IMG/VR virus record: IMGVR_UViG_3300038421_000076
Location: 1-25,568 of that record
Direction: 5' to 3' (one strand)
DNA from: a virus
Length of the DNA: 25,568 nucleotides
The translations under genes were made by a program, and so were the position numbers. How positions within the stretch are numbered: the stretch's first letter is position 1; each line of letters opens with the position of its first letter. Positions 1 through 23,511 of the stretch are shown piece after piece. A model generated the notes under the pieces. The model searched no databases, was not told the DNA's origin, and saw only the letters and a program-made list of their open reading frames with translations.

Positions 1-162
1 AAGGACTCGTGTGGTGGTGAAGAGGGAGAATGGGTCAATCCCGTTAACTCGGGGGTTGAGGAGTGCTGAGAAGTCTGTGATGGCGCTGTCTGGGCTATCT
101 GCCAGCACATATGCGCAATGCGCCATGGTAATGCGGTAGAGTGTGGTGGGTTTACTCAGCAC
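1..162 (-). CDS. Hypothetical leftward protein, cut by the left edge
   Basis: This is the third gene of a leftward cluster. It is open to the window edge, so only the first 54 codons are seen. Translation from GTG at 162 gives a protein beginning MLSKPTTLYRITMAHCAYVL. The start lies inside the end of the gene before it (11-base overlap), which suggests translational coupling. No motif or family is recognised. The residue mix (Tyr, Cys, Leu, regularly spaced hydrophobics) looks like a real protein, and the frame has no stop to the edge. Function unknown; an early or accessory phage protein is the natural guess because the cluster points away from the structural genes. Confidence 0.55.
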   Translation of the reverse strand, partial: MLSKPTTLYRITMAHCAYVLADSPDSAITDFSALLNPRVNGIDPFSLFTTTRVL

Positions 163-301
163 TCGCGCCTCCTTCCCGTAGCCAACGCGAGCGTATCTCC
201 TGCCTTGAAGGGGCCGATGGCTTGAGGGTGATGGGGAAAAACTGGAATGAGGCAGTGTCTAGGGGGCTCCACTCGTCCCAATCAAACAGATCCTGCTCCA
301 T
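152..301 (-). CDS. Hypothetical 49-residue acidic protein
   Basis: A short leftward gene whose ATG shares one base with the TGA stop of the upstream gene (TGATG arrangement at 299-303), the usual mark of translational coupling in compact phage operons. The protein starts MEQDLFDWDEWSPLDTASFQ, with an acidic, Trp/Phe-rich first half and a basic Arg-rich segment near residues 35-42. No domain is recognised. It overlaps the following leftward gene by 11 bases. Its reality rests on the chained overlaps on both sides, not on similarity. Confidence 0.6.
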   Translation of the reverse strand: MEQDLFDWDEWSPLDTASFQFFPITLKPSAPSRQEIRSRWLREGGASAE

Positions 302-486
302 CACTCCCCCCCAAGGTCTGCCGCTTCCGCGGCGTTAACACGTTCTACGATGAAGGCGGCGAGGGAGGCGTCGTCCTTCCACGTCCCACGACCATTGACA
401 ATTGCTACGGACTGCTCGTTTGCGTCTAGAAGCAGCTCTTCTTGAGCCTTCCAAGGTCTGGGATACTTAGTCCACACTGGTTCCAC
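301..486 (-). CDS. Small phage protein of the 'DANG...FIVxxVNA' type
   Basis: A 61-residue protein from GTG at 486. An AAAGG stretch lies directly against the start, so the ribosome site is weak. Residues 20-30 read LLDANEQSVAIV and residues 44-52 FIVERVNAA. That layout, a short strand pair around 'DAN' followed by a helix with FIV..VN, recalls a very common class of small uncharacterised proteins in phage early regions. I recognise the pattern from general experience only and know no function for it. It is the first gene of the leftward cluster. No convincing leftward promoter is visible upstream. Confidence 0.7.
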   Translation of the reverse strand: MEPVWTKYPRPWKAQEELLLDANEQSVAIVNGRGTWKDDASLAAFIVERVNAAEAADLGGE

Positions 487-713
487 CTTTTATCCCCCTT
501 CCCCGAAGTGGGCAAAATGGAGGGAGTGCTTGTGACGGGGAGGGTGGGGCAGCTTCCCACCTTCCCCTACCCCCGATTGCTTCCTCCCTCCACTCGGGAT
601 AATAGGCCGGGGTGGGGAGGTTGTCAAGGGGAGGCGGGCATGGGCTAGGCCCTCGCCCTTAGGTATGCCCTAGCCTTCCCCTATGCCCTCCCCGCCAACG
701 CATGTTTTTCGCA

Positions 714-731
714 CGCCAAAATCGCCAAAAT
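714..731. repeat. Tandem 9-base repeat (two copies CGCCAAAAT)
   Basis: Two exact back-to-back copies of CGCCAAAAT sit at the left edge of the AT-rich island of the divergent region. Such iteron-like repeats can bind an initiator or repressor. Only two copies are present, so chance cannot be excluded. Confidence 0.5.
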
Positions 732-877
732 TCCGAAAACATCGCAAGGTCTTTAGAATCAACCCTGTGACCTGTTGAAAAGTCCTCGTTTTTCTTCCTA
801 TATAAAGGAATAAAGAATTGATTGGAGGAGGCGGGGGCGTCAAATCTGCGCCCCTCCCCCATTCTCCCCAACCCGGT

Positions 878-922
878 GCAAACGGAGTCTCATCTCCGTT
901 TGCCTCTCTATTTATAGAGAGG
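878..922. repeat. Two abutting perfect hairpins
   Basis: GCAAACGGAG at 878-887 pairs perfectly with CTCCGTTTGC at 894-903, a 10-bp stem with a 6-base loop. It is followed at once by CCTCTCTA at 903-910 pairing with TAGAGAGG at 915-922, an 8-bp stem around TTTA. Neither has a T-run in the right place for a simple intrinsic terminator on either strand, so a cruciform, operator or origin role is more likely. Confidence 0.75.
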
Positions 923-945
923 AAAAACGAGAGAAAAAACGAGAG
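923..945. repeat. Tandem AAAAACGAGAG repeat
   Basis: Two copies of AAAAACGAGAG (923-933 and 935-945) follow the double hairpin directly. The reverse complement of the core, CGTTTTTC, also occurs at 788-795, so the AT-rich island has some inverted symmetry. Confidence 0.5.
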
Positions 946-1121
946 TTGATTTGTTGAAAACAAAGGACTTACGTTATTGGCGGTTTTTGAGGGGGTAAAA
1001 ACAACGAAGAAAAGGCGAAAGTGCCCATGCCGCCGGGCACCTTCGGGTGGTTGGAACGACCTTGGGTGGAAGATAGGGCGGGGGAGGCCAAAGGTCAAGC
1101 CCCAACATGCTGTGTTCCTCC

Positions 1122-1149
1122 TTGCACTCCCCCCAACATATGGTATAAT
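1122..1149 (+). promoter_or_regulatory. Sigma-70-type promoter for the terminase operon
   Basis: TTGCAC at 1122-1127 and a perfect TATAAT at 1144-1149 are separated by 16 bases, with TGG immediately before the -10 box (extended -10). The start point would be near 1156, leaving a leader of about 120 bases before the first gene. The promoter at 4886-4914 shares the TGGTATAAT string and a preceding CCCCAAC tract. Confidence 0.8.
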
Positions 1150-1162
1150 CCCCTCAGTGCTT

Positions 1163-1239
1163 GGGGAGGTAGTGCCAACCTCCCCTCCCTCGGGGGCTCC
1201 CCTACAGAGCCCCCAGCGCGCCTACCCCGCGCCAGGCGC
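1163..1239 (+). promoter_or_regulatory. Leader with three consecutive hairpins
   Basis: Within the inferred leader RNA, GGGGAGGT (1163-1170) pairs with ACCTCCCC (1178-1185); GGGGGCTC (1192-1199) pairs with GAGCCCCC (1207-1214); and GCGCCT (1218-1223) pairs with AGGCGC (1234-1239). The first two stems are perfect over 8 bp with 7-base loops. No T-run follows any of them, so they are not obvious terminators. A processing signal, an antitermination element or a translational control element would all fit. The region ends before the ribosome site (AAAGGGGAG) of the first gene. Confidence 0.65.
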
Positions 1240-1278
1240 TCCTCCCCAAGCACTTCTTCGAGGGAAGAAAGGGGAGAT

Positions 1279-1449
1279 ATGTCAGATCCGAAGTCGGAAG
1301 TGGTTGAGATCATTGAGGGCTCCTCGCTGGGGAACTGGGATAGCATCCTCGAACGTGCGACGAGTCACCCGGCCAAGGGGCCTACGGCCGGCCAGCGCCT
1401 CTTTGCACGCGACCCCTCCCTCCCCTCCTTCTTCCGCGCCGATGCTTGA
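1279..1449 (+). CDS. Hypothetical 56-residue protein, first gene of the rightward operon
   Basis: The ATG at 1279 follows a good ribosome site (GAAAGGGGAGAT), the first such site after the promoter and leader. The protein begins MSDPKSEVVEIIEGSSLGNW; it is acidic at the N-terminus and ends in a basic, Pro/Phe-containing tail. No domain is recognised. The end overlaps an ATG at 1442 (ATGCTTGA arrangement), so it is probably coupled to the small-terminase gene behind it. An accessory role in packaging is possible from position alone. Confidence 0.6.
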   Translation: MSDPKSEVVEIIEGSSLGNWDSILERATSHPAKGPTAGQRLFARDPSLPSFFRADA

Positions 1450-1795
1450 GCAGGTTAGAACCCTCAAGCTCCTCCTAGATGTCCTCGCATCCCCCAACAC
1501 CCGCCGCGCTCTCGCCCGCCTCTCACGCCTCGACGAGGGAGGAGGTGGGGAGGGTGGCACAGCGCCTCCACCTGGACGAGTCGAGTACTTCGACCCTTCA
1601 AAGGCTCGTAGCTACACGGAGGAGAGGGAAAGATGGATGGAGCGCACTGGCAAAAGACTCCCTTGGGGCGCGGATATCCCGGGAGTTGGAGAGGCTGACG
1701 GAGGAAGAGTCGCGGCTTTTACTTCGCCTCTTGGAGCGTGGGGACTTCCGGGTGTTGGAGAGGGAGGACAAGACTCGCGCGGTGCTTGCAGTTAG
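1442..1795 (+). CDS. Overlapping frame; probable N-terminal piece of the small terminase joined by frameshift
   Basis: From ATG 1442 this frame reads MLEQVRTLKLLLDVLASPNT and continues with an Arg/Leu-rich helix up to about position 1536, using the same CTC/CGC-rich codons as the neighbours. After the purine run at 1535-1554 (GAGGGAGGAGG followed by TGGGG) it turns into Gly/Pro-rich low-complexity sequence while the frame one base ahead becomes protein-like. Skipping a single G there would join this start to the small-terminase frame and give a product of about 369 residues. A stand-alone 117-residue protein overlapping the next gene by some 240 bases is much less likely. A sequencing error, a natural mutation and programmed frameshifting are all possible. 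Confidence 0.35.
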   Translation: MLEQVRTLKLLLDVLASPNTRRALARLSRLDEGGGGEGGTAPPPGRVEYFDPSKARSYTEERERWMERTGKRLPWGADIPGVGEADGGRVAAFTSPLGAWGLPGVGEGGQDSRGACS

Positions 1796-2552
1796 TGCGC
1801 ATACACCCGGCCTCGGGACCATCAAGATCAAGAAGGGGAGTGGGAGTGTGGTGAGGAACAAGGCGGCGAAGGCCGCGGATGCCTTCCTCGCGAGGGTGGG
1901 GGGGATTGGGAGGTTGGTGGAGTGGTTGGAGGTGAGTGAGAATGACCCTAGGATGCCATTGCCACTACAGAACCTCCTCACTATTGCCAGGCGGGCGCCG
2001 ACGAAGCAGCTTTCGAGGCTTCTTGCGGAAACTGGTGCGAGTCATGCGGAGCTGGTGAAGTGGGCTCTCACGGGGGCGAGCCTGATTGGGGATGCGGAGG
2101 CGGCCCTCGCGCTGAAGGCAGGTCAGCCGAAGGCAGTTAGGAACCTCCTCCGCATCGCACATAGTGGCCTTGGGAAGTGTGGGGCGTGTAGGGGGACGGG
2201 GGCGACGAAGGAGGAGGAGCCCCGGGAGTGCCCGAGATGCACAGGCACTGGCCGCAGGCCGGAGCACCCAGAGGCAATGAGTGCCATCAAGCTCGTTGCG
2301 GAGGCTGGGAGGATGCTTCCCCAGAAGGGCGGGGACACCAATGTGAACGTTGGCGTGAAGGTAGAAGCGCCGAAGGCGCAGGGGTTCTTCGAAGACCAGA
2401 TGAAGTTCATGCAGAAGATGCTCGCGATGCCGGTGCCGGCGCTGGGTGCCGGGACTATAGATGCGGAGGTAGTCAGTGAAGCTCAAGTTGAAGGGCGTGT
2501 TGAATCTGTTGTTGAAGCTCCTCACGGTGGGGAAGGAGACGGGGTTGTTTAG
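1554..2552 (+). CDS. Probable terminase small subunit with DnaJ-like zinc motif
   Basis: A 332-residue protein directly ahead of the large terminase, the usual place of the small subunit, which recognises phage DNA and recruits the large subunit for packaging. The N-terminal half is helical and charged (for example LERLTEEESRLLLRLLERG). Residues 209-233 hold a paired CxxCxGxG motif (C209, C212, C226, C229), as in DnaJ-type zinc fingers. The C-terminus is Met/Pro-rich and probably flexible. I chose GTG 1554 because a perfect AGGAGGT lies 7 bases upstream; ATG 1479 follows a stop directly and has no ribosome site. The true start may instead be ATG 1442 through a frameshift. The function is inferred from position; the motif is directly visible. 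Confidence 0.6.
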   Translation: MAQRLHLDESSTSTLQRLVATRRRGKDGWSALAKDSLGARISRELERLTEEESRLLLRLLERGDFRVLEREDKTRAVLAVSAHTPGLGTIKIKKGSGSVVRNKAAKAADAFLARVGGIGRLVEWLEVSENDPRMPLPLQNLLTIARRAPTKQLSRLLAETGASHAELVKWALTGASLIGDAEAALALKAGQPKAVRNLLRIAHSGLGKCGACRGTGATKEEEPRECPRCTGTGRRPEHPEAMSAIKLVAEAGRMLPQKGGDTNVNVGVKVEAPKAQGFFEDQMKFMQKMLAMPVPALGAGTIDAEVVSEAQVEGRVESVVEAPHGGEGDGVV

Positions 2553-2589
2553 GGAAGGGCAGCGGGTGGAGAAGCGGGGCTAGTTCTTC

Positions 2590-4593
2590 GTGTATAGCCG
2601 GAAGGTCATTGCTGCGCGAAGCGCGATGGTGGAGCGCCTGACGGGGGTGGCCCTCCGGGAGTATTCCATTCGGGAAACCGATGGGTTGATTCAGGAGTTG
2701 GAGGAGATGAAGGACACCCCCATCTCCTCCCTCCCCGAGCGCCTCCAGAGCTTCATCATCAACGAGCAGAGGCTGTGTTGCATTGACTTTAGGTATTGGT
2801 GCAAGTACGCGAAGATCGTAACGGATAGGAGACGGGAGGAGCGGTTCACCCCCTGGCCGTCACAGGAGTTCTTCCTTGCGCGCGTAGCGCGCGAGGAAGA
2901 GAGGCAGTGGGATGCGTGGTTGGGGGCTGGGGGCACTGGCGAGTTCCGCTTTAAGGGCCGCTTCATCTTCCTGAAGAGCCGCCAGGTTGGTGCGACTAGG
3001 GTTGGGAACATCCTCGGCGCGCACGTTACCATCAACAGTGAGAATACATATTCCCTAATTGCATCGGACACCCCCGAGAAGGGGCTGGAGCTGTGGAGGC
3101 TGTGGGATCGCCTATACAGTAGCCTCCCTTGGTGGCTCGCGCCCGCGCGTGACTCCCGCGTCAAGGGGGAGGAGCAGTACTTCGCGGGGACCAATTCCAC
3201 ACTCGTCGTTGGGGCAGGAAATCAGAAGGCGTCCTTCGGGCAGGGGGTGACCGTTGACTTCTTCCACCTGACGGAGATCTCCAGGTGGAATAGGGATGTT
3301 ATTGAGCTGGTGGACCAGGATCTCTTCTGGGCATTTGAGTCAAGCAGGAAGGTCTCCAGCATTGGTATCTTGGAATCAACCGCAGAGGAAGGCGTCGGTG
3401 GTTGGTTCAAGCAGCAGTGGGATCTGAGCGTCAGGGAGAAGAGCCTCTTCATCCCAACGTTCCTTGGGTGGTTTTTATGTCCTGAGAAGTTCACCCTAGA
3501 GGATCCATCCATTGTCCTCACCTCCGAGACGCTAGCCCTCGGGAAGCAAATCGAGGAGAGGTTCCCGGATGTCCACCTTTCCACCTCCCAGCTCCGGTGG
3601 TATCAATCCCGCAGGGGAGAGATGGAAGGGAAGGGGAAGCTCGGGGAGTTCCTCTCCCAAGTTCCCAGCTTCCCCGAGGAAGCCTTCCAGTTCGCCAACA
3701 AGAGCATCTTCTCCCCCTCGGTGATTGAGGTGATGAGTAGGGGGGTGCAGAAGCCCATTCAGGTAAAGGAATGGCGGGGTGGGGCGTTCGTAGACGCCAC
3801 GTGGGATGGGGATCCCGTCAAAGCGGATGGGCTCTTGCTCGTGTGGGCGCCCCCGATGGTGGGGAGGACATACTACATTGCGGTAGATGGCGCCCACGGG
3901 CGCGAGGGCGGGGATGCACATGCGGTCCAGGTAATGGCCGCGCCCGTTGGCTCTGCCAAGGCGGAGCAGGTAGCGGAGTGGAGGGGGGTTGGGGGCGGGC
4001 TAGCGTCGGTGGGGGCAGTGACCAGCATTGCTATGACCCTTGGGGAGCTATATAGGGATCCCATCACTGCCCGCCCGGCGTGTATCGCCCCAGAGAGCAA
4101 CCCGGGGAGCCCGAGTGCGTTCGTGACGTTGAAGCTAGTAGAGATCGGGTATTCCAACATCTACATCCACCGCCAAGTTGGGAGGATCAGGGGGGAGCAA
4201 CTGAGGCCGGAGCTGGGGTGGCAGACAACCTCCGCCACGCGCACACCCTTGGTGCTACGTGGGAAGGAGGCGTTGGACGCTGGGGATATCCTCATCCGCT
4301 CCCCGAGGGTTATCGCAGAAATGCGCACCTTCGAGAAGAAGTGGACGGAGAGCGGGAGGGTTGTTAGGTATGAACACTCCGAGGGGGAGCATGATGATGT
4401 GTTGATCTCCCTCTTCATCGCATACTGGGTAGCGACGGAGGAGTTCGCGTTGATGGATGCGGAGAGGAGCGCACGCGCTGCGCGCGTGGAGGAAGTGAAG
4501 ACCCCGAAGTGGGATCCGGGGATGATCGTCCTCTCGGGGGAACCGACTAAGGTGCCGGGGTTGCCTACGGATTTGTTTGGGCGCTTCTACTAA
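2590..4593 (+). CDS. terL: Terminase large subunit (ATPase and nuclease)
   Basis: This 667-residue protein powers DNA packaging into the procapsid and cuts the concatemer. The ATPase half shows a Walker A-like KSRQVGATR (residues 129-137) and a Walker B-like VTVDFFHLTE (220-229). The nuclease half shows three acidic clusters of the RNase H-like fold: VDGAHGREGGD around D433, APESNPG around E502 and EHDD around D602/D603. Order, spacing and length fit the family. The start is GTG 2590, the first after an in-frame stop at 2581; its ribosome site is poor (GGGGC), and ATG 2626 is an alternative. It sits 37 bases after the small subunit gene and ends just before two convergent tRNA genes. Confidence 0.93.
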   Translation: MYSRKVIAARSAMVERLTGVALREYSIRETDGLIQELEEMKDTPISSLPERLQSFIINEQRLCCIDFRYWCKYAKIVTDRRREERFTPWPSQEFFLARVAREEERQWDAWLGAGGTGEFRFKGRFIFLKSRQVGATRVGNILGAHVTINSENTYSLIASDTPEKGLELWRLWDRLYSSLPWWLAPARDSRVKGEEQYFAGTNSTLVVGAGNQKASFGQGVTVDFFHLTEISRWNRDVIELVDQDLFWAFESSRKVSSIGILESTAEEGVGGWFKQQWDLSVREKSLFIPTFLGWFLCPEKFTLEDPSIVLTSETLALGKQIEERFPDVHLSTSQLRWYQSRRGEMEGKGKLGEFLSQVPSFPEEAFQFANKSIFSPSVIEVMSRGVQKPIQVKEWRGGAFVDATWDGDPVKADGLLLVWAPPMVGRTYYIAVDGAHGREGGDAHAVQVMAAPVGSAKAEQVAEWRGVGGGLASVGAVTSIAMTLGELYRDPITARPACIAPESNPGSPSAFVTLKLVEIGYSNIYIHRQVGRIRGEQLRPELGWQTTSATRTPLVLRGKEALDAGDILIRSPRVIAEMRTFEKKWTESGRVVRYEHSEGEHDDVLISLFIAYWVATEEFALMDAERSARAARVEEVKTPKWDPGMIVLSGEPTKVPGLPTDLFGRFY

Positions 4594-4595
4594 AA

Positions 4596-4672
4596 TGGCC
4601 CCCGCGGTGGGGCTCGAACCCACATCGTCCACTTACGGCCACCCGCTTAGGAGGCGGGGCCGGTACGCGGGG
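4596..4672 (-). tRNA. Aberrant tRNA-Arg (anticodon CCT) without a normal D-arm
   Basis: Seen on the minus strand. The acceptor CCCCGCG (4672-4666) pairs with CGCGGGG (4606-4600), followed by G and an encoded CCA. The T-arm GTGGG-TTCGAGC-CCCAC is standard. The anticodon arm CCCGC-CTCCTAA-GCGGG gives anticodon CCT, which reads AGG. Total length is a normal 77 bases, but only 7 bases lie between acceptor and anticodon arm, where a D-arm of about 17 should be, and 18 bases lie between the anticodon and T arms. Those 18 contain TAAGTGGAC, closely matching the D-loop TAACTGGAC of the neighbouring tRNA. CGGCC at the 5' side can also pair with GGCCG, lengthening the anticodon stem. It may be a functional D-armless tRNA, a rearranged one or a decaying copy. 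Confidence 0.7.
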
Positions 4673-4673
4673 G

Positions 4674-4749
4674 TGGGGCGCCCGGAAGGATTCGAACCTT
4701 CATCTCTGGCTTAGAAGGCCAGCGCTTTGTCCAGTTAAGCTACGGGCGC
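4674..4749 (-). tRNA. tRNA-Arg (anticodon TCT)
   Basis: A complete cloverleaf of 76 bases on the minus strand: acceptor GCGCCCG/CGGGCGC, D-arm GCTT-AACTGGACA-AAGC with the conserved GG, anticodon arm CTGGC-CTTCTAA-GCCAG with U33 and anticodon TCT, T-arm GAAGG-TTCGAAT-CCTTC, then C and an encoded CCA. It reads AGA (and AGG by wobble). The discriminator base C is unusual for arginine. It lies upstream of the CCT tRNA with a single base between them, so the two are probably cut from one transcript. No clear minus-strand promoter is visible. Confidence 0.93.
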
Positions 4750-4753
4750 ATTG

Positions 4754-4787
4754 CCGGGGGCTACCTGCCGTGAGTCCTCGCCCCCGG
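4754..4787. repeat. Perfect 8-bp inverted repeat beside the tRNA genes
   Basis: CCGGGGGC (4754-4761) pairs with GCCCCCGG (4780-4787) around an 18-base loop. It lies between the tRNA pair and the next rightward promoter. No T-run follows on either strand, so it is not a standard intrinsic terminator. It could still slow convergent transcription or mark tRNA transcript processing. Confidence 0.5.
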
Positions 4788-4885
4788 GTACGACATCTTT
4801 GTGCCCCCACATCGTCCCTCACGGCGTATGAGGGGCACCGTTTCTAGAGGGGAATGTAGGCCACCTGCTCCGCCTTGTCAACCCC

Positions 4886-4914
4886 TTGCCCCGACCCCCA
4901 ACCCGTGGTATAAT
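4886..4914 (+). promoter_or_regulatory. Sigma-70-type promoter
   Basis: TTGCCC at 4886-4891 and TATAAT at 4909-4914 are 17 bases apart, with TGG just before the -10 box (extended -10). The start point would be near 4921, about 48 bases ahead of the next gene. The upstream sequence resembles that of the 1122-1149 promoter. Confidence 0.82.
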
Positions 4915-4968
4915 ACTCTCCATCAAACCCAACATATAGACCCGCACCCCCGCCGTGGAGGCCAAGTA

Positions 4969-5358
4969 GTGCCCATCCTCGCCCTCGTTCTTGATGACGC
5001 AACGCATGCGAAGCTGGCGGCTAGGAGCCCCGAGGAGCCCCAGAAGGCCATTGTGGCAACCCTGGCCCGTTTCGCCGACGTTGACCCCGCCACGGAGCCC
5101 GTGGTGCTCCACGGGGGGGTTCTAGGGGAGATCCGGGCATTGCTTGGGAGGTTCTCCGACCAGGATGAACTCCTCCGCCTCGTGCAACGGGGGGCGACGG
5201 TCAACTTGAAGGGGGCATCCAGTGGGGTGCACCTCTCCCTGACGGAGCACCAGAAGAAGCGCCTCAAGGAAATGGCGGCGGGGGCGCATTGTTCGGAGCT
5301 GAAGGCCCTTCAGGATGTTCTGAAGGGGGCCTTGGTCGCGCGGTTTGGGCCGTATTGA
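4969..5358 (+). CDS. Hypothetical 129-residue protein, possibly DNA-binding
   Basis: First gene after the second promoter. GTG 4969 has GGAGG 7 bases upstream. The protein begins MPILALVLDDATHAKLAARS. It has a strand-then-helix layout near the N-terminus and again near residues 88-105 (VNLKGASSGVHLSLTEHQ, then KKRLKEMA). That alternation resembles small phage proteins with ribbon-helix-helix-like or other winged DNA-binding folds, but the similarity is impressionistic. The C-terminus is helical. It could act in late-gene control or packaging. No catalytic motif is seen. Confidence 0.75.
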   Translation: MPILALVLDDATHAKLAARSPEEPQKAIVATLARFADVDPATEPVVLHGGVLGEIRALLGRFSDQDELLRLVQRGATVNLKGASSGVHLSLTEHQKKRLKEMAAGAHCSELKALQDVLKGALVARFGPY

Positions 5359-5373
5359 GGGAGGGAGGGGCGC

Positions 5374-5601
5374 ATGCGCTGGGACCACGACGGGCACCCG
5401 CAGGGGATTGATAAAAATGGGCGGCTGTATTGCCTGAAAGACGGGGTGAAGCTGTCCAAGGCGGGGCAGCGGGTGACGGCGGAAGACACACACGACTTCT
5501 CCGATGGCATCCACCACATCGCCCCCCACGCGACACTTTTCTCCCACCGGAAGGCCAGTGGTTGGGAGGATGCCTTTAACTGTGGCCTGGAGGAGTTGTA
5601 G
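5374..5601 (+). CDS. Hypothetical 75-residue His-rich protein
   Basis: ATG 5374 follows a strong purine ribosome site (GAGGGAGGGAGGGG). The protein begins MRWDHDGHPQGIDKNGRLYC and contains a His-rich stretch (DGIHHIAPHATLFSH) around residues 44-58. Two cysteines and several histidines could bind metal, but the spacing fits no family I know. Its stop overlaps the next start by one base (TAGTG), so the two are probably translated together. Confidence 0.7.
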   Translation: MRWDHDGHPQGIDKNGRLYCLKDGVKLSKAGQRVTAEDTHDFSDGIHHIAPHATLFSHRKASGWEDAFNCGLEEL

Positions 5602-6335
5602 TGCCTGAGCCTGCTAAGTTTGAGCTGAAGATCGAGCCTGCCGTTGCGGCTATTCTACTCACCATCGTCCCCGACGAGGCGGTTGTTGGCGGGAAGATGG
5701 TCAAGGTCCGTGCGACCCTCGCGAAGATGTTGGAGGATGGGAAGCTGGATGCGGGGGATTTCTTGACGGCCCTCGCGGCGTTTGCTGTGGGCGTGCCTGC
5801 GGATTCGAGGCCGGCCCCTCCGCCCATCCCTAATCCCATCCCTGCTCCGCCGGAACCTGCACCTCCGGTGCAACCGGACGAAGTGACCCTTGAACTGAAG
5901 TGGGCCTTCGAGCCGGGCACGGATGATGAGGGGCAGCAGGTGTTGGTGAATGTGCCTGTTGAACTACGCGGCAGCACTATCGTCTTCCCTTCCCACCCCG
6001 ATGTGACCAATGACCGCACGAAGATCACCATCGAGGCGGGGTTGCGGAAGGACGGGAAGGGCCTGCACTTCTCCGATCACCCCCATCTGATCGGTAGTAT
6101 CGAATTCATCGCAGAGCGCGATGGGGTGGTGTTGGGGACGATCGGTGGAAATGGCCTCGCGAACCCGCGGAGGGTTGATAACGGCGTGGGTTGGGGTGGG
6201 GATCGGTATGTGAAGACCCAGGGCACCCAGGGCGTCGCCAACATCCGCGTGAAGGGCGGGGCGATTCAGTTGTTCGCCCGTCACACCGCGAGTGGGGTTT
6301 CCAGCCCCCGCTTCTCCACCACCCCGAGCGTGTAA
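5601..6335 (+). CDS. Hypothetical two-domain protein with proline-rich linker
   Basis: A 244-residue protein from GTG 5601, coupled to the previous gene. Residues 1-66 form a small, mostly helical domain. Residues 67-93 are a proline/alanine linker (PAPPPIPNPIPAPPEPAPP). Residues 94-244 look beta-rich, with alternating hydrophobics and many glycines. No motif is recognised. A linker joining a small helical base to a beta domain is common in phage surface or accessory virion proteins, but the position ahead of the portal gives no firm clue. Confidence 0.75.
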   Translation: MPEPAKFELKIEPAVAAILLTIVPDEAVVGGKMVKVRATLAKMLEDGKLDAGDFLTALAAFAVGVPADSRPAPPPIPNPIPAPPEPAPPVQPDEVTLELKWAFEPGTDDEGQQVLVNVPVELRGSTIVFPSHPDVTNDRTKITIEAGLRKDGKGLHFSDHPHLIGSIEFIAERDGVVLGTIGGNGLANPRRVDNGVGWGGDRYVKTQGTQGVANIRVKGGAIQLFARHTASGVSSPRFSTTPSV

Positions 6336-6336
6336 C

Positions 6337-6717
6337 GTGCCCCTCTACGTCTTTAGGTGCGAGGGCGTAGAGCATGAAGGGGGGGCTCGGGAGTGGGAAG
6401 GGTATCTTCCGACCTGGGACTCCCCGAACGCCCTGTGCGCCTGTGGCGCACAGGGCGAACGTGTCTGGAGGGGGCGGCAGTACCATGCGGGCCTGGCGGG
6501 GTTCCCCCTCACAACTAGGATGTTGGACGGGGTTGAACGCACCTATGAAACACGCCAGGACTGGGAACTCGCCGTGAAGTCCAGGGGGTTGCGGATTCGG
6601 GACGATGCATCTTGGCTGGACGAGGAACCCGGCGAGCCGCGTTACGACTGGAAAACCGGTAAGGTCTCCTACCCAAACATGCACACCGTCCTCGGAGGGC
6701 GTGGCACGTGGATCTGA
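6337..6717 (+). CDS. FmdB-like protein with degenerate zinc ribbon
   Basis: A 126-residue protein from GTG 6337 beginning MPLYVFRCEG, the typical opening of FmdB-type zinc ribbons (MPxYxYRCxxC). The family normally has two CxxC knuckles. Here the first is reduced to C8 and the second reads CACG (C33, C35), so the full zinc site is missing. Residues after 50 resemble the long tails of phage FmdB-like proteins often found near the portal gene (Tyr/Arg/Asp-rich, HTVLGGRG near the end). The DNA of the second knuckle is part of a 13-bp perfect inverted repeat. The function of phage members is unknown to me. The end overlaps the next start by 10 bases. Confidence 0.65.
   Translation: MPLYVFRCEGVEHEGGAREWEGYLPTWDSPNALCACGAQGERVWRGRQYHAGLAGFPLTTRMLDGVERTYETRQDWELAVKSRGLRIRDDASWLDEEPGEPRYDWKTGKVSYPNMHTVLGGRGTWI
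6429..6457. repeat. Perfect 13-bp hairpin with 3-base loop, inside a gene
   Basis: CGCCCTGTGCGCC (6429-6441) pairs without mismatch with GGCGCACAGGGCG (6445-6457) around TGT. It encodes the zinc-knuckle segment of the FmdB-like protein. It is the longest short-loop stem I found in the window. Confidence 0.9.
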
Positions 6718-7010
6718 CACAAAGGCCCCTCCTAGTGATCGCAACTACCATCGCTGCCCTCTCCATCCCAACTGCTGATGCGGTGCTGATCGATGCGGTT
6801 GCGACAGCGATCAAGATCGTCGGCAGCGCGTGCGGGTTCATGTTGATCTGGTACGCGAAGAGGGTGGTGAGGAAGTTGGAAGTTGCCCTCGACTTCTTCG
6901 AGAAGGCCCCAGAGGATGCGTGGGTTAAGTTTGGGGAGTTGCAGGGTGATGTGCGGGCGTTGAAGGGGAGCGTGGCGGAGTTGCAACGCCTTGCGGGGGT
7001 GCCTAGGTAA
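6708..7010 (+). CDS. Small membrane protein, holin candidate
   Basis: A 100-residue protein from GTG 6708, overlapping the previous gene. Residues 8-25 (LLVIATTIAALSIPTADA) and 31-52 (AVATAIKIVGSACGFMLIWY) are hydrophobic and could form two membrane helices. Residues 53-100 are charged and helical (KRVVRKLEVALDFFEKAPED, then a Leu-rich stretch that may coil). Two helices plus a charged tail fits small phage holins, which open the host membrane at lysis. A coiled-coil virion or assembly membrane protein is the alternative. No endolysin gene is seen in the window to support the lysis role. Its stop overlaps the portal start (TAATG). Confidence 0.6.
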   Translation: MDLTQRPLLVIATTIAALSIPTADAVLIDAVATAIKIVGSACGFMLIWYAKRVVRKLEVALDFFEKAPEDAWVKFGELQGDVRALKGSVAELQRLAGVPR

Positions 7011-9031
7011 TGTGGAGCCTCCCTCTCAGTGTGCAGGAGGAGAATGCCCTGCTGGCGGCCCTTCAGGAGAAGGTCACGGCGGGGTGGCTGGCGTTGCAGG
7101 ATGAGCCTGCGTTTCTCGGCATTCAGGACACCATCCACTTCGTGAATGGCGCCCACGGGCTGGTGGAGAGCAACGCCCTCAGCAAGGTCCATCTCAACCG
7201 CGTCAGGAAGATCCACAGTGAACTCGCCGCGGTGCTCACTGATGTGAGGCCGTATGGGAGTTATGAGACGCAGGACGACAATGCGAAGCTCCTCGGGGAG
7301 GCCCTGAGTAATTGCAACACCCACTGGTGGCGGACGAGTAGGGTTGATAGGACTATTAGGGAAGCACTGTCGTTCGCTGGGGTTGGGGCGAGTGGGTATG
7401 TGTTGCTCCAACACATGCCGGATAGGGATGATATTGTCGCGAGTGTGGTAGACCCGCGGGATGTGGTCCCCATCGAGCCAGTCAATAGCGTTAGTATTCA
7501 AGACTGGCGTGGGGCCTGCATCCGCATTCGGATGCCACTGTCGGATGCACATAGGAGGTTCCCGGAGAAGCGGGCGTTCCTGAAGGAGTCGAACGGGAAC
7601 GGGTGGTTCGGGCCGGAGACATCCAGGGTGGCGGGGGCGGTGCGGCAGATTTGGAGCAGTTTCTGGGATAGTGTTCTAAATAGAAAGCGTCGGGTGGACC
7701 CGCCCGGGGTGGAGATCATGTTGATCCACTACCGGGATGATAGTGTTAACAGGACCGATGTGCCTATTGAAATGGGCGAGCCGGGGACGAATTGGGCGTA
7801 CACGGTGCAGCCGGGGGAGCGGATGTTCCCGCGGGGGCACGTGGTGATCTGCACGCCGGACACCATTTTGTGGAACGGACCCAATAGGTACTGGCATGGG
7901 AAGATTCCACTGGTGAAGTTCACCTTTGTGACGGCCCCGTGGACTATTTTGGGCCTGTCTATCATCCAGGACATCCTCCCCCTCCAGCATTCCCTCAATG
8001 AGAGCGTCCGTGGTCTCGACGATGCACGGAACAAGATCCTTCGCCGGGATGTGATCGCGGATCAGAAGGCCCTGCCTGAGAACGAGCTGAAGAAGATCGA
8101 TACCCGAATGCCTGGGGGGACATATTGGGTGAATACCCAGCTCACGGGGAGTGAGGGCTTCAGGTTTGGCGAGCCCCCGGACCTCGGCCCCTACTACCTC
8201 CAATACATGCAATTCCTCCTTGACCAGATGGACGATGTGAGTGGTGTGAGGGGCATCCAGGCATTCCAGCAACTGAAGCAGATGCCGTCGAGTAATACCA
8301 TTCAGGAATTCCTGAATGCGATGTCCCCCCTCCTGCGGGATATGGCGAGGAACTTGGAGGCATCTGTCGCGGAGTTGGAGGAGCTAATGCTCTTCAACTT
8401 CCTCCAGTTCTACTCCACGGAGAAGCGGAGGGAGATCCTCGGGGCGGATGGGCTGGCGGGGACGGACTTCGAGGGGGAGGCCGGGACGATGGTGCCGGGC
8501 GGGGGTGGGTCGCTCGAAGAGCGAGCGAGAAGGAGCGCGAAGCAGTTCAAGTTCGCCGTGGCCCCCAACACCTTTCTGAACATCAACAACATTACTGCCC
8601 GGATGATGAAGTACCAGCTCTGGAGTCAGGGCGGGTTGTCCACGAGGAGCATTTGGGAGGCGTTCGACATCCCCAACATCGGGAAGGCCCAGGGCGCGAC
8701 CGAGGCCGAGCAGATGATGTGGGAGCGGGAGAACGGCCTCCTGCAAGGCCCGACGAGGGAGTTGGTCCAAGTGCAGCTGGAGGCCCAGAAGGCCGCAGCC
8801 CTCGCGCAGGCGGCCCAGGCACAGCAGGCCCTCGCGCAGATGGGGATGCAGGCAGCGGGGGCTCCGCCGCAGGTTGGAGGAGCCGCTCTTGGAGGGGCTG
8901 CCCCTGAGGGGGCAGCTCCCGGCGGTGGGGCTCCACGTGGCCCGGGCCGGCCCCCAGAGGGAATCGAGGCCCCCCAGCTAGTAACCCGTGATGGGGGCAC
9001 TAGGCAGGTTGTGAGTAGGACTGGAGGTTAG
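7010..9031 (+). CDS. Portal protein
   Basis: A 673-residue protein placed before the scaffold and capsid genes. Portals form the dodecameric ring at one capsid vertex through which DNA enters and leaves. The length and helix-rich layout fit. Recognisable portal-like parts are the early VRKIHSELAAVLTDVRPYGS stretch, the region of VDPRDVVPIEP, the clip/stem-like LNESVRGLDDARNKILRRD and the long crown-like helices around LLRDMARNLEASVAELEELM. The last 80 or so residues are Ala/Gln/Gly/Pro-rich (QAAQAQQALAQMGMQAAG onward) and likely disordered, with a perfect 8-bp hairpin in the DNA. The identification rests on sequence character plus gene order. Confidence 0.85.
   Translation: MWSLPLSVQEENALLAALQEKVTAGWLALQDEPAFLGIQDTIHFVNGAHGLVESNALSKVHLNRVRKIHSELAAVLTDVRPYGSYETQDDNAKLLGEALSNCNTHWWRTSRVDRTIREALSFAGVGASGYVLLQHMPDRDDIVASVVDPRDVVPIEPVNSVSIQDWRGACIRIRMPLSDAHRRFPEKRAFLKESNGNGWFGPETSRVAGAVRQIWSSFWDSVLNRKRRVDPPGVEIMLIHYRDDSVNRTDVPIEMGEPGTNWAYTVQPGERMFPRGHVVICTPDTILWNGPNRYWHGKIPLVKFTFVTAPWTILGLSIIQDILPLQHSLNESVRGLDDARNKILRRDVIADQKALPENELKKIDTRMPGGTYWVNTQLTGSEGFRFGEPPDLGPYYLQYMQFLLDQMDDVSGVRGIQAFQQLKQMPSSNTIQEFLNAMSPLLRDMARNLEASVAELEELMLFNFLQFYSTEKRREILGADGLAGTDFEGEAGTMVPGGGGSLEERARRSAKQFKFAVAPNTFLNINNITARMMKYQLWSQGGLSTRSIWEAFDIPNIGKAQGATEAEQMMWERENGLLQGPTRELVQVQLEAQKAAALAQAAQAQQALAQMGMQAAGAPPQVGGAALGGAAPEGAAPGGGAPRGPGRPPEGIEAPQLVTRDGGTRQVVSRTGG
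8897..8916. repeat. Perfect 8-bp hairpin in the portal gene tail
   Basis: GCTGCCCC (8897-8904) pairs with GGGGCAGC (8909-8916) around TGAG, within the Gly/Ala/Pro-rich end of the portal gene. It lies about 200 bases before another, larger hairpin. Confidence 0.8.
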
Positions 9032-11158: not shown

Positions 11159-12223
11159 ATGTTTGAAATGTCGGGCTTCTTGCCCCTGGTCAACACTCTT
11201 GCCCAGAGGTATGTGGAGCCCATCCTGCATGATGGTGTTCTGCGAAACGACCCGCTCCCTGCAATGCTGAAGAGGAAGTGTCTGAAGCCGTATCGGGGTG
11301 GCATTTCCTGGCAGCAAAACGCGACGTACGACCTGTTGGATGTGTTGGATGTTGCGAAGTCCAACGTTAGCTACCCGACTTCCACGAACACTCATCAGGT
11401 TGAGACGGGCTACCAGTTCGACATCCGGAGCAAGTTGGTTCCGCTGAGTGTGGACCTGGCGCAGTTGTCCACCGACCTCTGGGGCACTAACGTGAATCTG
11501 GACTACCTGGAGACGCGACTGCAACTCGCGGCCCTCTCGATGAGCGCGAAGATTGCGACGGACTGCTATCGGGATGGCACGCAGGCGGGCCGGACGCTGG
11601 CGATGAATGGCCTTGATGAAGCCCTCAATGATGGTAGCACCAATGGCTGGCAGGGCGTGACCTTCGCGAACTACGGTACGGTCGCGCGGAGCGCGGTGAA
11701 CGGTGCGACTAGCTCCCCCATGACCGGCCCGACGGCCAACTTCGCGGGCGGCAGCCTCACCCTCACCAGCGTCGAAGACGCATGGGCGAGTGTGTGGTAC
11801 GGAGACGAGAAGCCCGACTACATGCTGACGACCATCAAGGGCTTCAGCATCCTGAAGAGGGTGATCTACAACCCGGCCATTCGGCTGGAGCAGGCGCCCG
11901 ATCAGGAGTTCGGCTTCCTGAGTTATGTGTACAACGGCACCCCCGTTCATGCGAGCCACTACGCCCCCGGCTCCCGCACGGCGAGTGCCGCCGATACCAA
12001 GATCGGCTACAGCGCCATCACGGGCGAGACGCTTTGGTTCCTCAACAGCAAGCACATCAACTTCCACGTGAGCACCAACCCGATGCGGAGCTTCGCCCTT
12101 TGGCCCTTCCAGTTGATCCCCGGCACGCAGCAGGCCGTGGCGCAGTACATCGCGGACGTTAACCTCACTGTGACCCCAGGCAGTAACCGCTTCATGCGCT
12201 ACCTGTTCGGATTCACGGACTAA
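11159..12223 (+). CDS. Major capsid protein
   Basis: A 354-residue protein following the scaffold gene, with a good ribosome site (GGTGGAGGTAGTAG) before ATG 11159. It forms the icosahedral shell, presumably with the HK97-type fold. Features are a long N-terminal arm (VNTLAQRYVEPILHDGVLRN), mixed alpha/beta sequence with TDLWGTNVNLDYLETRLQLA as a likely spine helix region, a glycine-containing insertion around residues 170-200 and a C-terminal TNPMRSFALWPFQLIPGTQQ segment that looks like P-domain strands. No cleavage propeptide is obvious. The call rests on order, length and composition. Confidence 0.87.
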   Translation: MFEMSGFLPLVNTLAQRYVEPILHDGVLRNDPLPAMLKRKCLKPYRGGISWQQNATYDLLDVLDVAKSNVSYPTSTNTHQVETGYQFDIRSKLVPLSVDLAQLSTDLWGTNVNLDYLETRLQLAALSMSAKIATDCYRDGTQAGRTLAMNGLDEALNDGSTNGWQGVTFANYGTVARSAVNGATSSPMTGPTANFAGGSLTLTSVEDAWASVWYGDEKPDYMLTTIKGFSILKRVIYNPAIRLEQAPDQEFGFLSYVYNGTPVHASHYAPGSRTASAADTKIGYSAITGETLWFLNSKHINFHVSTNPMRSFALWPFQLIPGTQQAVAQYIADVNLTVTPGSNRFMRYLFGFTD

Positions 12224-13239: not shown

Positions 13240-14190
13240 GTGCCCGGCGACGCGACGTTTGGCACGCTGTGGAGGATGTTGGAGCTGTATGCACCGAAGG
13301 TGCCAGTTCCACTCCTGAAGCAGTTTGTCAACAACTCGTACAGCCGGGCACTCGTGCAGTTTCCGTGGAGTGAGCTGAGGAGGACCGGGGCGCTACGACT
13401 GGCGGCGCCATACACGACGGGGACGGTTACAGTTACTAACGGTAGCGTGACGGTGGTTGGGAGTGGGACCAGTTGGACCAGCGCCGACCACGCGACGTTG
13501 CAGTTGGTGGTTGGGAACAGGGGGCCATTCTTCGACATCGCTAGTGTTGAGTCGGGAACGTCGCTGACACTGGCGAGCCCGTTTGTCGGCACCAGCGCGA
13601 GTGGGGCCAGTTACACCATCCAGCAGATCTACATCGTCCCCCCAGCCAACTTCATCAAGTACACCTCCTTCCTCGACACGACCCCCGCCACCCCTGCCCA
13701 ACTAGACTTCTCCATGACGCAGGAGGTGTTGGACTTCTACGACCCAGGGAGGACCATCACGGCGGGGAGGCCGACACACCTGGTGAATGCGGAGTCTTCC
13801 CCCTTCGCAGCTACGCTGCGGAGGCCACGCTACGAAGTCTGGCCCCGTCCATCTGAGGCGTTCATCGCAGCGTTCAGGTATGTTGTGAAACCAGACCTGC
13901 TAGTCGGAGATGATGACACCATCATCTACCCACTCCGGGGGGATGTGATTCGGGAGGGGGCATTCGCCGACCTCGCGGCCTGGCCTGGGACGGACGACTC
14001 GCCCAACACCTACTACGACGCGAGTGGGGGGCGGAGTCAGTTCCATGACCGTAGGTTCCAGGAGGGGATCGCGCTGTGTAAGGGGGAAGATAGCGAGATC
14101 GCGTCGAAGATGGTGGCGTACAAGGAGGAGTGGCGGAAGCTATCTCCTTTCAGAATGCCAACGGCTGGCACCGCCACAGTTAGCCTCTGA
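13240..14190 (+). CDS. Head-tail connector (adaptor-like) with beta insertion
   Basis: A 316-residue protein from GTG 13240. The N-terminal helices (TLWRMLELYAPKVPVPLLKQ onward) and the C-terminal part (long helix, SKMVAYKEEWRKL) resemble gp6/adaptor-type connector proteins, which bind beneath the portal. Residues 55-130 are a Thr/Val/Ser/Gly-rich beta domain (GTVTVTNGSVTVVGSGTSWT) inserted between helices. I have seen this kind of insert in phage connector proteins and take it to be an Ig-like fold. It is the first of three connector-like proteins in the cluster. Confidence 0.65.
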   Translation: MPGDATFGTLWRMLELYAPKVPVPLLKQFVNNSYSRALVQFPWSELRRTGALRLAAPYTTGTVTVTNGSVTVVGSGTSWTSADHATLQLVVGNRGPFFDIASVESGTSLTLASPFVGTSASGASYTIQQIYIVPPANFIKYTSFLDTTPATPAQLDFSMTQEVLDFYDPGRTITAGRPTHLVNAESSPFAATLRRPRYEVWPRPSEAFIAAFRYVVKPDLLVGDDDTIIYPLRGDVIREGAFADLAAWPGTDDSPNTYYDASGGRSQFHDRRFQEGIALCKGEDSEIASKMVAYKEEWRKLSPFRMPTAGTATVSL

Positions 14191-21500: not shown

Positions 21501-21561
21501 TGCAACGGGCCTGACGTATAGCGTTCCAAACCCCTTCGCGGGTGGGAGTGCAGAGGTGTGA
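18550..21561 (+). CDS. Tail nozzle/propeller-like protein with two inserted Ig-like domains
   Basis: A 1003-residue protein. The N-terminus (LSRGVNLRDVPDGLAEGEWR, then a RPGRRW motif) fits proteins such as the T7 gp12 or P22 gp4-region nozzle/stabilisation class, where repeated strands form a beta-propeller around the DNA channel; residues 1-450 and 680-1003 have that repetitive strand character. Residues about 457-565 and 571-670 are two tandem Ig-like domains (DFSISAPPSATVAIGG and SFTLSAVPSTLSVQRGG openings) joined by a PTPPPTG linker, a type common on bacterial secreted proteins. They are probably surface-exposed and could aid adsorption. Assignment as nozzle is inference from order and pattern. 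Confidence 0.65.
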   Translation: MDYQQVEVTALSRGVNLRDVPDGLAEGEWRRLTNVRALAEGAISTRPGRRWVAGVQNGRDVHTLTTLGERVISGSGRELFRDGEAYPTTFTGRPVSWVKHRGSDGDERWLYVADGGQFRMLGEDGSDIKWGITEPTKGVVVNVLTDTGLLNSSVYGAFVYDWRYVYKNSRTGARSNPSPILTGTAVVNKKVKLIAECSLDGQVDTIEFCRRGGLNGLDTWRVVGAAPNKGVDPSTGAPQKVEFIDNVSDANAVDGFVMRTDNNVPFTTTDARGNAVKEAAFAYIWGPLEGKWIFACGDPNRPGHVYWTNPSRPHSASPSNNIAVSSPEEPLVGGFIFGGTCYCWTAEHLYALDYQGDDAIVSFVPRRTFVGRGLSLPFAFAVGPLIWFFSKDGLYVTDGQSPAEPFTETALRPLFSPHVEERKYIAPGALGQIQWPAFTTAVEEFEGGQGVSGVIRDFSISAPPSATVAIGGSGSVQVTVSSLGQFWGDVGLGVSGTPPPGVTFSFSPQSGVPGTGSFTSTLTISASASAVAGSFTIQVRGQRVGGSLSHLSDPITVTISGAAPTPPPTGSFTLSAVPSTLSVQRGGVVMGEVRVEALGGFAAEVALVPAGPAGVQVTILQTSILPPSAGATIQVEAAGTALLGTYTITITGTSGALSATTTILLTITAESAPVPAESIIGMLRVVYGGQELHVHYKDVLGQWVHLRNHLPYNRWSNDESPEVSGYGSIYETISYLDEAQPNTTLLIGTNTGLVAVERGTYDYVEGNKIQCRIRSRSEHFGAPRTLKELGNVIVEADLGDAVLPLALNPSQPTGIAFIPFINAETTMLAWQRVGTGAGRRRFPRAFKDSNNGELVFAYSVAVDLEWNGNATIYGWLLQFHPDEEFITNWSFGPSTMGGTGYTHIRDVYLTITNPNGALTPRVQVDGVWYALKGDDGSVGIPAGTVKRKVHLWGPPVKGKVYRWDIAGAQFKLYGNECEVRMKHFATGLTYSVPNPFAGGSAEV

Positions 21562-22022
21562 CGGTAGATCAGCTTCTCTCCCGGCCGCCCCCCGGGCCAT
21601 TCGTCGGGCCGGTCAATGTTCCGGAGCTGAACCGCATCCTGGCGAGGGTGCAGGCTAGGTTGGGTGTGTTGGAGAGGGTGGAGGCGGCGGCTGGCGCCGC
21701 GGTCACCAGTACCGACATCTTTGCATCTCTCCCACTAGACGCGGACACCAACGAGCTTGATAGCGGAAATGCCACTGTTCTCCGCATTACCCCGAGTGGG
21801 GTGTTCAGAATCAATGGCCTGCGGCCGCCTGCGGCCGCCGAGCGCAAGCGCATCTACAACATCGGTGGCGTTAACATGTTGCTAACGCATAACTCCGGCG
21901 CTGCCCCTGCGGGCAGCGCCTTCACATGTCAGGGGCTCGGGGATATCCGCCTCGGCCCAGGGTTCGGGGCGGATTGCGTGTATGATCCTGTCTCTACCGT
22001 CTGGAGGGCGAGTGCGTTGTAG
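21558..22022 (+). CDS. Short tail-fibre-like protein
   Basis: A 154-residue protein from GTG 21558, overlapping the previous stop by four bases. Residues 20-45 are a coiled-coil helix (VPELNRILARVQARLGVLER). Residues 75-154 are beta-rich and end in a Gly/Cys-containing tip-like segment (GSAFTCQGLGDIRLGPGFGA). A short trimerising stalk followed by a compact tip is typical of small fibre or knob proteins. The second half also carries a 10-bp perfect hairpin. It may assemble with the large fibre encoded next. Confidence 0.65.
   Translation: MTVDQLLSRPPPGPFVGPVNVPELNRILARVQARLGVLERVEAAAGAAVTSTDIFASLPLDADTNELDSGNATVLRITPSGVFRINGLRPPAAAERKRIYNIGGVNMLLTHNSGAAPAGSAFTCQGLGDIRLGPGFGADCVYDPVSTVWRASAL
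21897..21920. repeat. Perfect 10-bp hairpin with 4-base loop, inside a gene
   Basis: GGCGCTGCCC (21897-21906) pairs with GGGCAGCGCC (21911-21920) around CTGC. Just upstream, CGGCCGC and GCGGCCG near 21824-21839 form another close inverted pair. Confidence 0.88.
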
Positions 22023-23511
22023 GAATTGGTTGTTGTTTGTACTGGCGTTGCTTGGTGCCCTACCTGCGTTTTCTCAGGTTGGGGTCTACAACTGGAGGGT
22101 GTTGGACGCATCGCAAACCCCCACCGCGAGACCCCCGAACTACTACGTCGCGGAGACCTTCCTGGAGCTCAGCGCCCTCCCCGACCTGGAGGAGAAAGAC
22201 CTCGGACGGGCCAACGACACGGGGGAGCTCTACTACTACGATGGAAGTAGCTGGTTGAGCCTGACGGCCACTACAGTGGTTGGTGGGGCAGACACGCAGG
22301 TCCAGTTCAACGATGGTGGGAACTTCGCTGGGGATAGTGCCTTTCTCTGGGATAAGACCAACAATGTCCTCGGTATTGGCACCGCAACTGCATCAACCTC
22401 TGTCATCGCTGGGAGGAAGGACCAAGACGCGGCGAGTATCTTCAACATCACCAACGCTAGTGCTGGCACGGCTGGGCACTCCGCCTTCCAATGCAATTCA
22501 GACACGGTGAACGCCGCGTTGCGGTGCCATAGTTCCACGCGCACAAGCACACAGTGTGGGGGGTTGGGGAACACCGCGGATATTGTGGCTGTCTCCGCAG
22601 GCTCTTTGAACATCTGCGGGCTATCTACTACCCCCATTCGATTAGTTAATGGTAATACCTACCGGGCGGAGGTGTCGGGAGGGGGGCTATTTAGGATCCT
22701 CGACTGGGGGACGAAGCCAACGTGTGACTCCTCCGCCGCAGGGGGGTTTTTCTTCGACACCGGCACCCCTGACACTTTTGAGGTGTGTACGAAGGACTCG
22801 GGGAGTTCATATGCCTGGCGCCCAGCGCAGTTGATGGATGGGGACAGGGGGGATATTACGGTATCCGCCGCAGGGGCCACGTGGAACGTCGATGCAGGCG
22901 CCATCTCCCTGACGACCGACGTTACCGGAGTCCTCCCCACCGCGAACGGCGGGACTGGCCTCGATACAAGTGCAACGGGCGATGATCGTGTCCTCGTCAG
23001 CAACGGAAGTGGCTGGCAGACGAAGGCCCTCGCAAACGGGACGTTGGTTTATAACTCGACCACCAACACGTTCTCGGCTGGGGGGAGTACTGGGACGATT
23101 GCGAGGGTGACGGCGGATAGGGCCACCACCTCTGCCGCCTTCAGTGATGTGACAGACCTGACCTTCGCCATCGCCGCAAGCACCACCTACAGCTTCACTT
23201 GTGAACTGGCCTACACAACCGCGGCGAGCACCACCGCCCTCCAGTTGGCTATCAACGGTCCTGCATCGCCCACGGCGATGCAATATAGCGTCTTCACGAC
23301 CACCGCGGCTGTAGCGGTGCATGGGGCGGTGCAGACTGCCTATGACACGGTGACAAACCCGGCCACTGGTGGCGGAGCCACGGCCCTCCCGGTCCGCATC
23401 ACCGGAACCCTTGAGAACGTTAACAGCGGGACTCTCGCAATCCGCTTCCGTACGGAGGTGGCAGCTAGTACGGTGACCATCCTACGTGGGGGTTGGTGTG
23501 TGTTGTTTTAG
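22012..23511 (+). CDS. Large tail-fibre-like protein with an N-terminal signal peptide
   Basis: GTG 22012 is chosen because GGAGGG lies just upstream, giving 499 residues; ATG 21982 would only lengthen the N-terminus. Residues 1-21 (MRCRNWLLFVLALLGALPAF, then S) are a textbook Sec signal peptide with an AFS|Q cleavage site. The rest is fibre-like: Gly/Thr/Ser-rich strands, DTQVQFNDGGNFAGDSAFLW, the GDITVSAAGATWNVD and LPTANGGTGL motifs common in phage fibres, and a C-terminal head ending GGWCVLF. The mature part has eight cysteines, more than usual for a cytoplasmic protein. It overlaps the short fibre gene by 11 bases. A secreted or periplasmic adhesin is an alternative to a virion fibre. 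Confidence 0.75.
   Translation: MRCRNWLLFVLALLGALPAFSQVGVYNWRVLDASQTPTARPPNYYVAETFLELSALPDLEEKDLGRANDTGELYYYDGSSWLSLTATTVVGGADTQVQFNDGGNFAGDSAFLWDKTNNVLGIGTATASTSVIAGRKDQDAASIFNITNASAGTAGHSAFQCNSDTVNAALRCHSSTRTSTQCGGLGNTADIVAVSAGSLNICGLSTTPIRLVNGNTYRAEVSGGGLFRILDWGTKPTCDSSAAGGFFFDTGTPDTFEVCTKDSGSSYAWRPAQLMDGDRGDITVSAAGATWNVDAGAISLTTDVTGVLPTANGGTGLDTSATGDDRVLVSNGSGWQTKALANGTLVYNSTTNTFSAGGSTGTIARVTADRATTSAAFSDVTDLTFAIAASTTYSFTCELAYTTAASTTALQLAINGPASPTAMQYSVFTTTAAVAVHGAVQTAYDTVTNPATGGGATALPVRITGTLENVNSGTLAIRFRTEVAASTVTILRGGWCVLF

Follow-up and report, generated by a model that had tools for sequence, protein, structure and literature searches.

The window, which is the whole stretch of DNA analysed here, spans 25,568 bases and is an entire IMG/VR virus record. 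Its virion genes form a run on one strand: terminase, a P22-type portal, the major capsid protein, an SU10-like adaptor, a 1003-aa tail protein, a 154-aa fibre-like protein and a fibre gene with a predicted export signal (Table 1). The fibre gene sits among late virion genes, with terminase, portal, capsid protein and adaptor on the same contig and strand. No relatives of the 1003-aa tail protein were found in the viral contigs searched; by eye, two apparent Ig-like repeats (GGSGSVQVTVSSLG.. and RGGVVMGEVRVEALG..) lie in the middle of this protein, without Pfam match. The whole fibre protein matched no PHROG or Pfam family, and searches with it retrieved little: one viral contig (L002) and two cyanophages, whose fibre body has no signal. 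An AlphaFold model of the whole fibre had a pLDDT of 30 and was unusable.

Table 1. Genes and features of the window around the fibre gene and its virion operon
Feature	Position	Strand	Remarks
Terminase large subunit	2590..4593	+	
P22-type portal protein	7010..9031	+	
Major capsid protein (phrog_9953)	11159..12223	+	
SU10-like head-tail adaptor	13240..14190	+	match below Pfam cut-off; relative in Bryobacterales provirus
Putative tail protein, 1003 aa	18550..21561	+	4-nt overlap with next gene, same operon
Fibre-like gene, 154 aa, without signal	21558..22022	+	11-nt overlap with the signal-bearing fibre gene, different frame
Shine-Dalgarno GGAGG	22003..22007	+	within 3' end of preceding gene; 4 nt before GTG
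Fibre ORF	GTG 22012 to TAG 23511	+	499 aa
Predicted Sec signal peptide, VRCRNWLLFVLALLGALPAFS	22012..22074	+	21 codons; predicted cleavage before Gln22; like signals in homologues
Mature fibre-like protein	22075..23508	+	478 aa; 8 Cys at mature 140, 151, 161, 181, 217, 238, 376, 475
Fibre body region	22078..22413	+	directly after signal; 36.6% over 112 aa to cyanophage S-LBS1 tail fibre
Two-Cys fibre tip domain, GTKPTCDSSAAGGFFFDTGTPDTFEVCTKDSGSSYAWR	22681..22836	+	Cys codons 22723-22725 and 22786-22788
GDITV...LPTANGGTG fibre motif stretch	22849..22959	+	GDITV 22849-22863; LPTANGGTG 22933-22959
C-terminal region with last two Cys (mature 376, 475)	23197..23508	+	possible second disulphide-bearing domain

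The earlier note had described a fibre ORF at this place with a 21-residue signal, the motifs GDITV and LPTANGGTG and eight cysteines. The ORF coordinates, the signal and both motifs were correct in the sequence, and exactly eight cysteines lie in the mature protein, a ninth falling inside the signal. The N-terminus reads VRCRNWLLFVLALLGALPAFS, then the predicted cut, then QVGVYNW. It has a positive n-region (RCR), the hydrophobic core LLFVLALLGAL and the cleavage site A-F-S↓Q (the arrow marks cleavage), and it contains neither a lipobox cysteine nor a twin arginine. Signals were scored with a home-made fixed heuristic on simple ORF calls, and by this heuristic the N-terminus has the n-, h- and c-regions and the small residues at -3 and -1 of a Sec/signal peptidase I substrate. 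The hydrophobic N-terminus might nevertheless go unused, if translation began at a downstream start or ran on from the preceding gene and the product were an ordinary cytoplasmic virion fibre. The GTG start overlaps the preceding gene, and sequence alone leaves other starts possible. Use of the in-frame ATG at 21982 would merely lengthen the n-region. Against an unused signal, the Shine-Dalgarno sequence is good, and the preceding gene lies in a different frame with its own stop and a plausible natural C-terminus, so that the run-on raised in the earlier note is not supported.

The relatives of the window protein bear directly on whether the signal is used. The two-Cys domain has the signature GTKPTCD...DTFEVC.KD...YAW in the window fibre. 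A search with the domain alignment gave 14 loci and a broader alignment gave 47 loci, and the domain led to approximately 36 distinct ORFs from uncultivated phage contigs. Terminase matches were present in 10/34 records, and the source records are therefore phages of several kinds; the IMG/VR contigs used are mostly fragments. Because the family was found via its C-terminal domain, the N-termini are an unbiased read-out. The heuristic detected a signal in 31 of the 36 distinct ORFs, which bears out the conservation in relatives that the earlier note had proposed as a check. L047, which is among the 31, was scored via an internal start, and its own N-terminus is also signal-like. The N-termini of the five missed by the heuristic (L006, L010, L014, L015 and L063) are hydrophobic by eye. 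All N-termini with a readable start are Sec-like, and they frequently end in A-x-A↓Q or A-F-S/G↓Q. A start downstream of the signal, the other possibility raised beforehand, was not seen in homologues with the two-Cys domain, which keep the signal. As a control, fibres were taken from viral contigs picked by a DNA pattern for P[AITV]ANGGTG, a motif also present in the window protein. The heuristic signal occurred in 2 of the 72 NGGTG-motif phage fibre ORFs with a readable start. The difference between 31/36 and 2/72 gives a Fisher p of 1.6e-19, a guide figure since the sequences are related and not independent. The background rate on the contigs of two relatives was 1/48 and 1/43 genes of at least 100 aa. 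Outside the family, two NGGTG-motif fibres on viral contigs (L083 and L141) also carry a signal, that of L083 being lipoprotein-like, and other lineages too may have gained exported fibres.

The cysteine pattern follows the signal. The two cysteines of the domain were invariant in 37/37 sequences. The median number of cysteines per 100 aa of mature chain was 1.03 in the family and 0.23 in the control fibres (p 5e-11). Even cysteine counts were found in 26/30 relatives, a figure that takes in eight chains having solely the two domain cysteines, and also in the window protein; when those eight chains are left out, 19/23 counts are even with the window protein included (p ~0.001, calculated by hand). 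The N-terminal module '(T)AVFPGAV.TD..L' allows the same sequence to be compared with and without a signal, because it follows the signal in some proteins and the initiator Met region in others. One branch of the family (L017, L040, L063 and L073) starts after the signal with this module. A cysteine occupies alignment column 120 in 9/9 copies with a signal and 0/5 without; for column 101 the figures are 7/9 and 0/5, respectively. In one signal-less copy, Ser replaces Cys in a nearly identical stretch. The chains of the family are adapted to an oxidising compartment, with paired cysteines. The reduced cytoplasm offers no reason for such pairing, and the combination of signal and cysteine pairing therefore indicates that the signal is used. 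Export of these fibres is well supported by these sequence comparisons. An unused N-terminus is very improbable, since the signals recur in the large majority of divergent relatives, even across three tandem paralogues, and the cysteine pairs track them.

Several lines of evidence connect the family with virion proteins. Cyanophage tail proteins contain matches to the AVFPGAV module, as do the 'tail tube B' of a Pelagibacter phage and the 'constituent protein' of a Roseobacter phage. In L037, L041 and L063 the fibre bodies match PHROGs of tail spikes, of which one family is polysaccharide-degrading. The two-Cys domain had no credible match in Pfam or PDB, and Foldseek against PDB returned none. 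An AlphaFold model of the domain had a core pLDDT of 83-90, and in a comparison with BFVD its first matches were the tail spike of Goe8 and further phage fibres, with weak E-values and probabilities near 1. Gene position points in the same direction. Virion structural genes flank the signal-bearing fibres in L011, L017 and L037. In a provirus of a Bryobacterales MAG, such a fibre lies inside the virion operon between a 295-aa gene and the SU10-adaptor gene, and the 295-aa gene has a counterpart in L017 by place and N-terminal sequence. No large fibre gene other than the signal-bearing one was seen in the contigs of L011 (47-kb) and L022 (43-kb). Fibre-like genes with signals and cysteines form a block in a 56-kb phage, which also has a strong P22-type portal. 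In L002, three tandem genes after the portal each have a Sec signal, and two of them end in the same two-Cys domain.

The main rival to virion attachment is a secreted binder. Here the protein would be exported and fibre-like but no part of the virion; it would fill the periplasm, be freed at lysis, and bind receptors or degrade surface polysaccharide. Its targets could be debris, vesicles or neighbouring cells, and its effect would be to prevent wasted adsorption or to keep off rival phages. The signals and cysteine pairs also speak for such a protein, and some bodies match tail spikes, including the polysaccharide-degrading family. The tandem genes in L002, beside L007, L009, L021 and L041, and in the 56-kb phage could represent a set of secreted binders, so that tandem arrangement fits both this and a virion fibre. 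The same N-terminal module, however, is found on signal-less fibres and known virion tail proteins, where it would be needless if the protein were free, and the two larger contigs had no other large fibre gene that could be seen. The exported genes could also be additional to normal fibres that were not recognised. We regard a free binder of this kind, with any of these targets, as somewhat unlikely.

A second alternative is a cell-surface or periplasmic protein, comparable to a moron, that blocks superinfection or makes the infected cell or lysogen adhere differently. A pattern for bacterial relatives, AGVADT[FY]E, found none, and a second bacterial pattern gave 12 matches across approximately 85,000 genomes. 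The two-Cys tip domain is also present in exported cell-surface proteins of Patescibacteria, Acidobacteriota and others (L067, L068-L072 and L075-L077). The tip domain is thus common to cells and phages and alone is no proof of a virion role. These cellular proteins, which have signals as well, and the location of one of the phage fibres in a provirus would agree with a moron-like role. On the other hand, no lipobox, anchor or sortase signal was seen, the proteins are large modular fibres unlike the known small exclusion lipoproteins, and their position in the virion operon with overlapping starts points to late expression. A moron-like role is therefore quite improbable. Two narrower candidates were rejected. 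A superinfection-exclusion lipoprotein of the Llp/Cor type was ruled out, as there is no cysteine at +1 and the 478-aa mature chain is not small; a spanin or SAR endolysin was ruled out by the presence of fibre modules, and no lytic domain was found. Of the possibilities offered in the earlier note, a genuine Sec signal with probable disulphides has held up and an unusual assembly route or release on lysis is among the options, while display on the infected cell and a block of superinfection gained no specific support. Particle attachment is favoured by the virion-type modules.

Our analysis indicates that the window gene probably encodes a fibre or spike of the virion type that leaves the cytoplasm through Sec, is then oxidised and joins particles at or after lysis. 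The fibre precursor, with a cleavable Sec signal, would be produced from the late virion operon and cross the inner membrane via SecYEG, and signal peptidase I would cut after Ser21. The mature fibre may then trimerise in the oxidising compartment, where disulphides would form, at least Cys217-Cys238 (mature numbering). Heads and tail tubes would form in the cytoplasm, and the fibre would meet the particles only at cell lysis, so that its attachment after lysis would be the last assembly step. In this scheme we infer actual export, disulphides, trimers and virion attachment after lysis; attachment to particles is suggested because of the virion-type modules and the gene position. We give an even chance to the broader proposal that there is a widespread class of uncultivated tailed phages in which receptor-binding fibres pass through Sec, are oxidised in the periplasm and join particles at or after lysis, with assembly split between compartments.

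Comparison with known systems shows both likeness and difference. The tail fibre of the isolated cyanophage S-LBS1 (ATS93183.1) resembles the window protein in its body and in the location of its gene in the virion region, but it has no signal, only one cysteine and no two-Cys domain. The tail spike of Bacillus phage vB_BmeM-Goe8, which is of the pectate-lyase type, has a tip domain 50% identical over 42 aa to the domain of L002 and a fold match to the two-Cys domain with a Foldseek probability of 1.00. This spike is the sole signal-less phage relative, and the first of its two cysteines is missing. The 'tail tube B' of Pelagibacter phage Skadi and a cyanophage tail sheath stabiliser/tail fibre contain the AVFPGAV module, which in one branch of the family comes after the signal. 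They are different proteins, in which the column 101 cysteine is absent in 5/5 and the column 120 cysteine in 3/5. Spikeless particles of P22 accept added tailspike (gp9) in vitro as a final step. This tailspike may serve as a model for a separately made fibre that joins finished particles, but it is cytoplasmic and has no signal. Filamentous and membrane-containing phages such as M13, PM2 and PRD1 have virion proteins that cross or enter a membrane. They are precedents for membrane-routed virion proteins, but they are not tailed phages. With the tail fibres and spikes of Caudoviricetes the window fibre shares the late virion position and modules, but it differs from them in carrying an export signal.

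Tail fibres are usually regarded as cytoplasmic proteins, and we know of no tailed phage that assembles fibres outside the cytoplasm. If our interpretation is correct, exported disulphide-bonded fibres break the rule of the cytoplasmic fibre and place the last step of virion assembly outside the cytoplasm. Such fibres would be easily missed or misassigned in metagenomes. Two surveys of diversity-generating retroelements (DGRs) read a signal peptide as a mark of cellular rather than phage target proteins (PMC6199706, PMC8144416). No description of exported tail fibres was found in the open-access literature searched, which is weak evidence because few subscription papers were covered. A testable reason for this design might be that disulphides harden fibres for harsh surroundings and that no loose fibres would be present inside the cell. 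The Bryobacterales provirus points to possible hosts in which exported fibres could be tested.

Two of the contigs have other features. The contig of L061 (G031; 51686-55881 and 1-8028) contains, besides fibres, further candidates for export near lysozyme- and holin-like genes, namely a 162-aa HNH-like protein, a 765-aa protein with 22 cysteines and a 96-aa protein with 10 cysteines. On the contig of L016 (IMGVR_UViG_3300037502_002252; G011:C1:9236-10417), seven TGA codons lie in frame within a terminase-like match; the phage may decode TGA as an amino acid, or the gene may have decayed.
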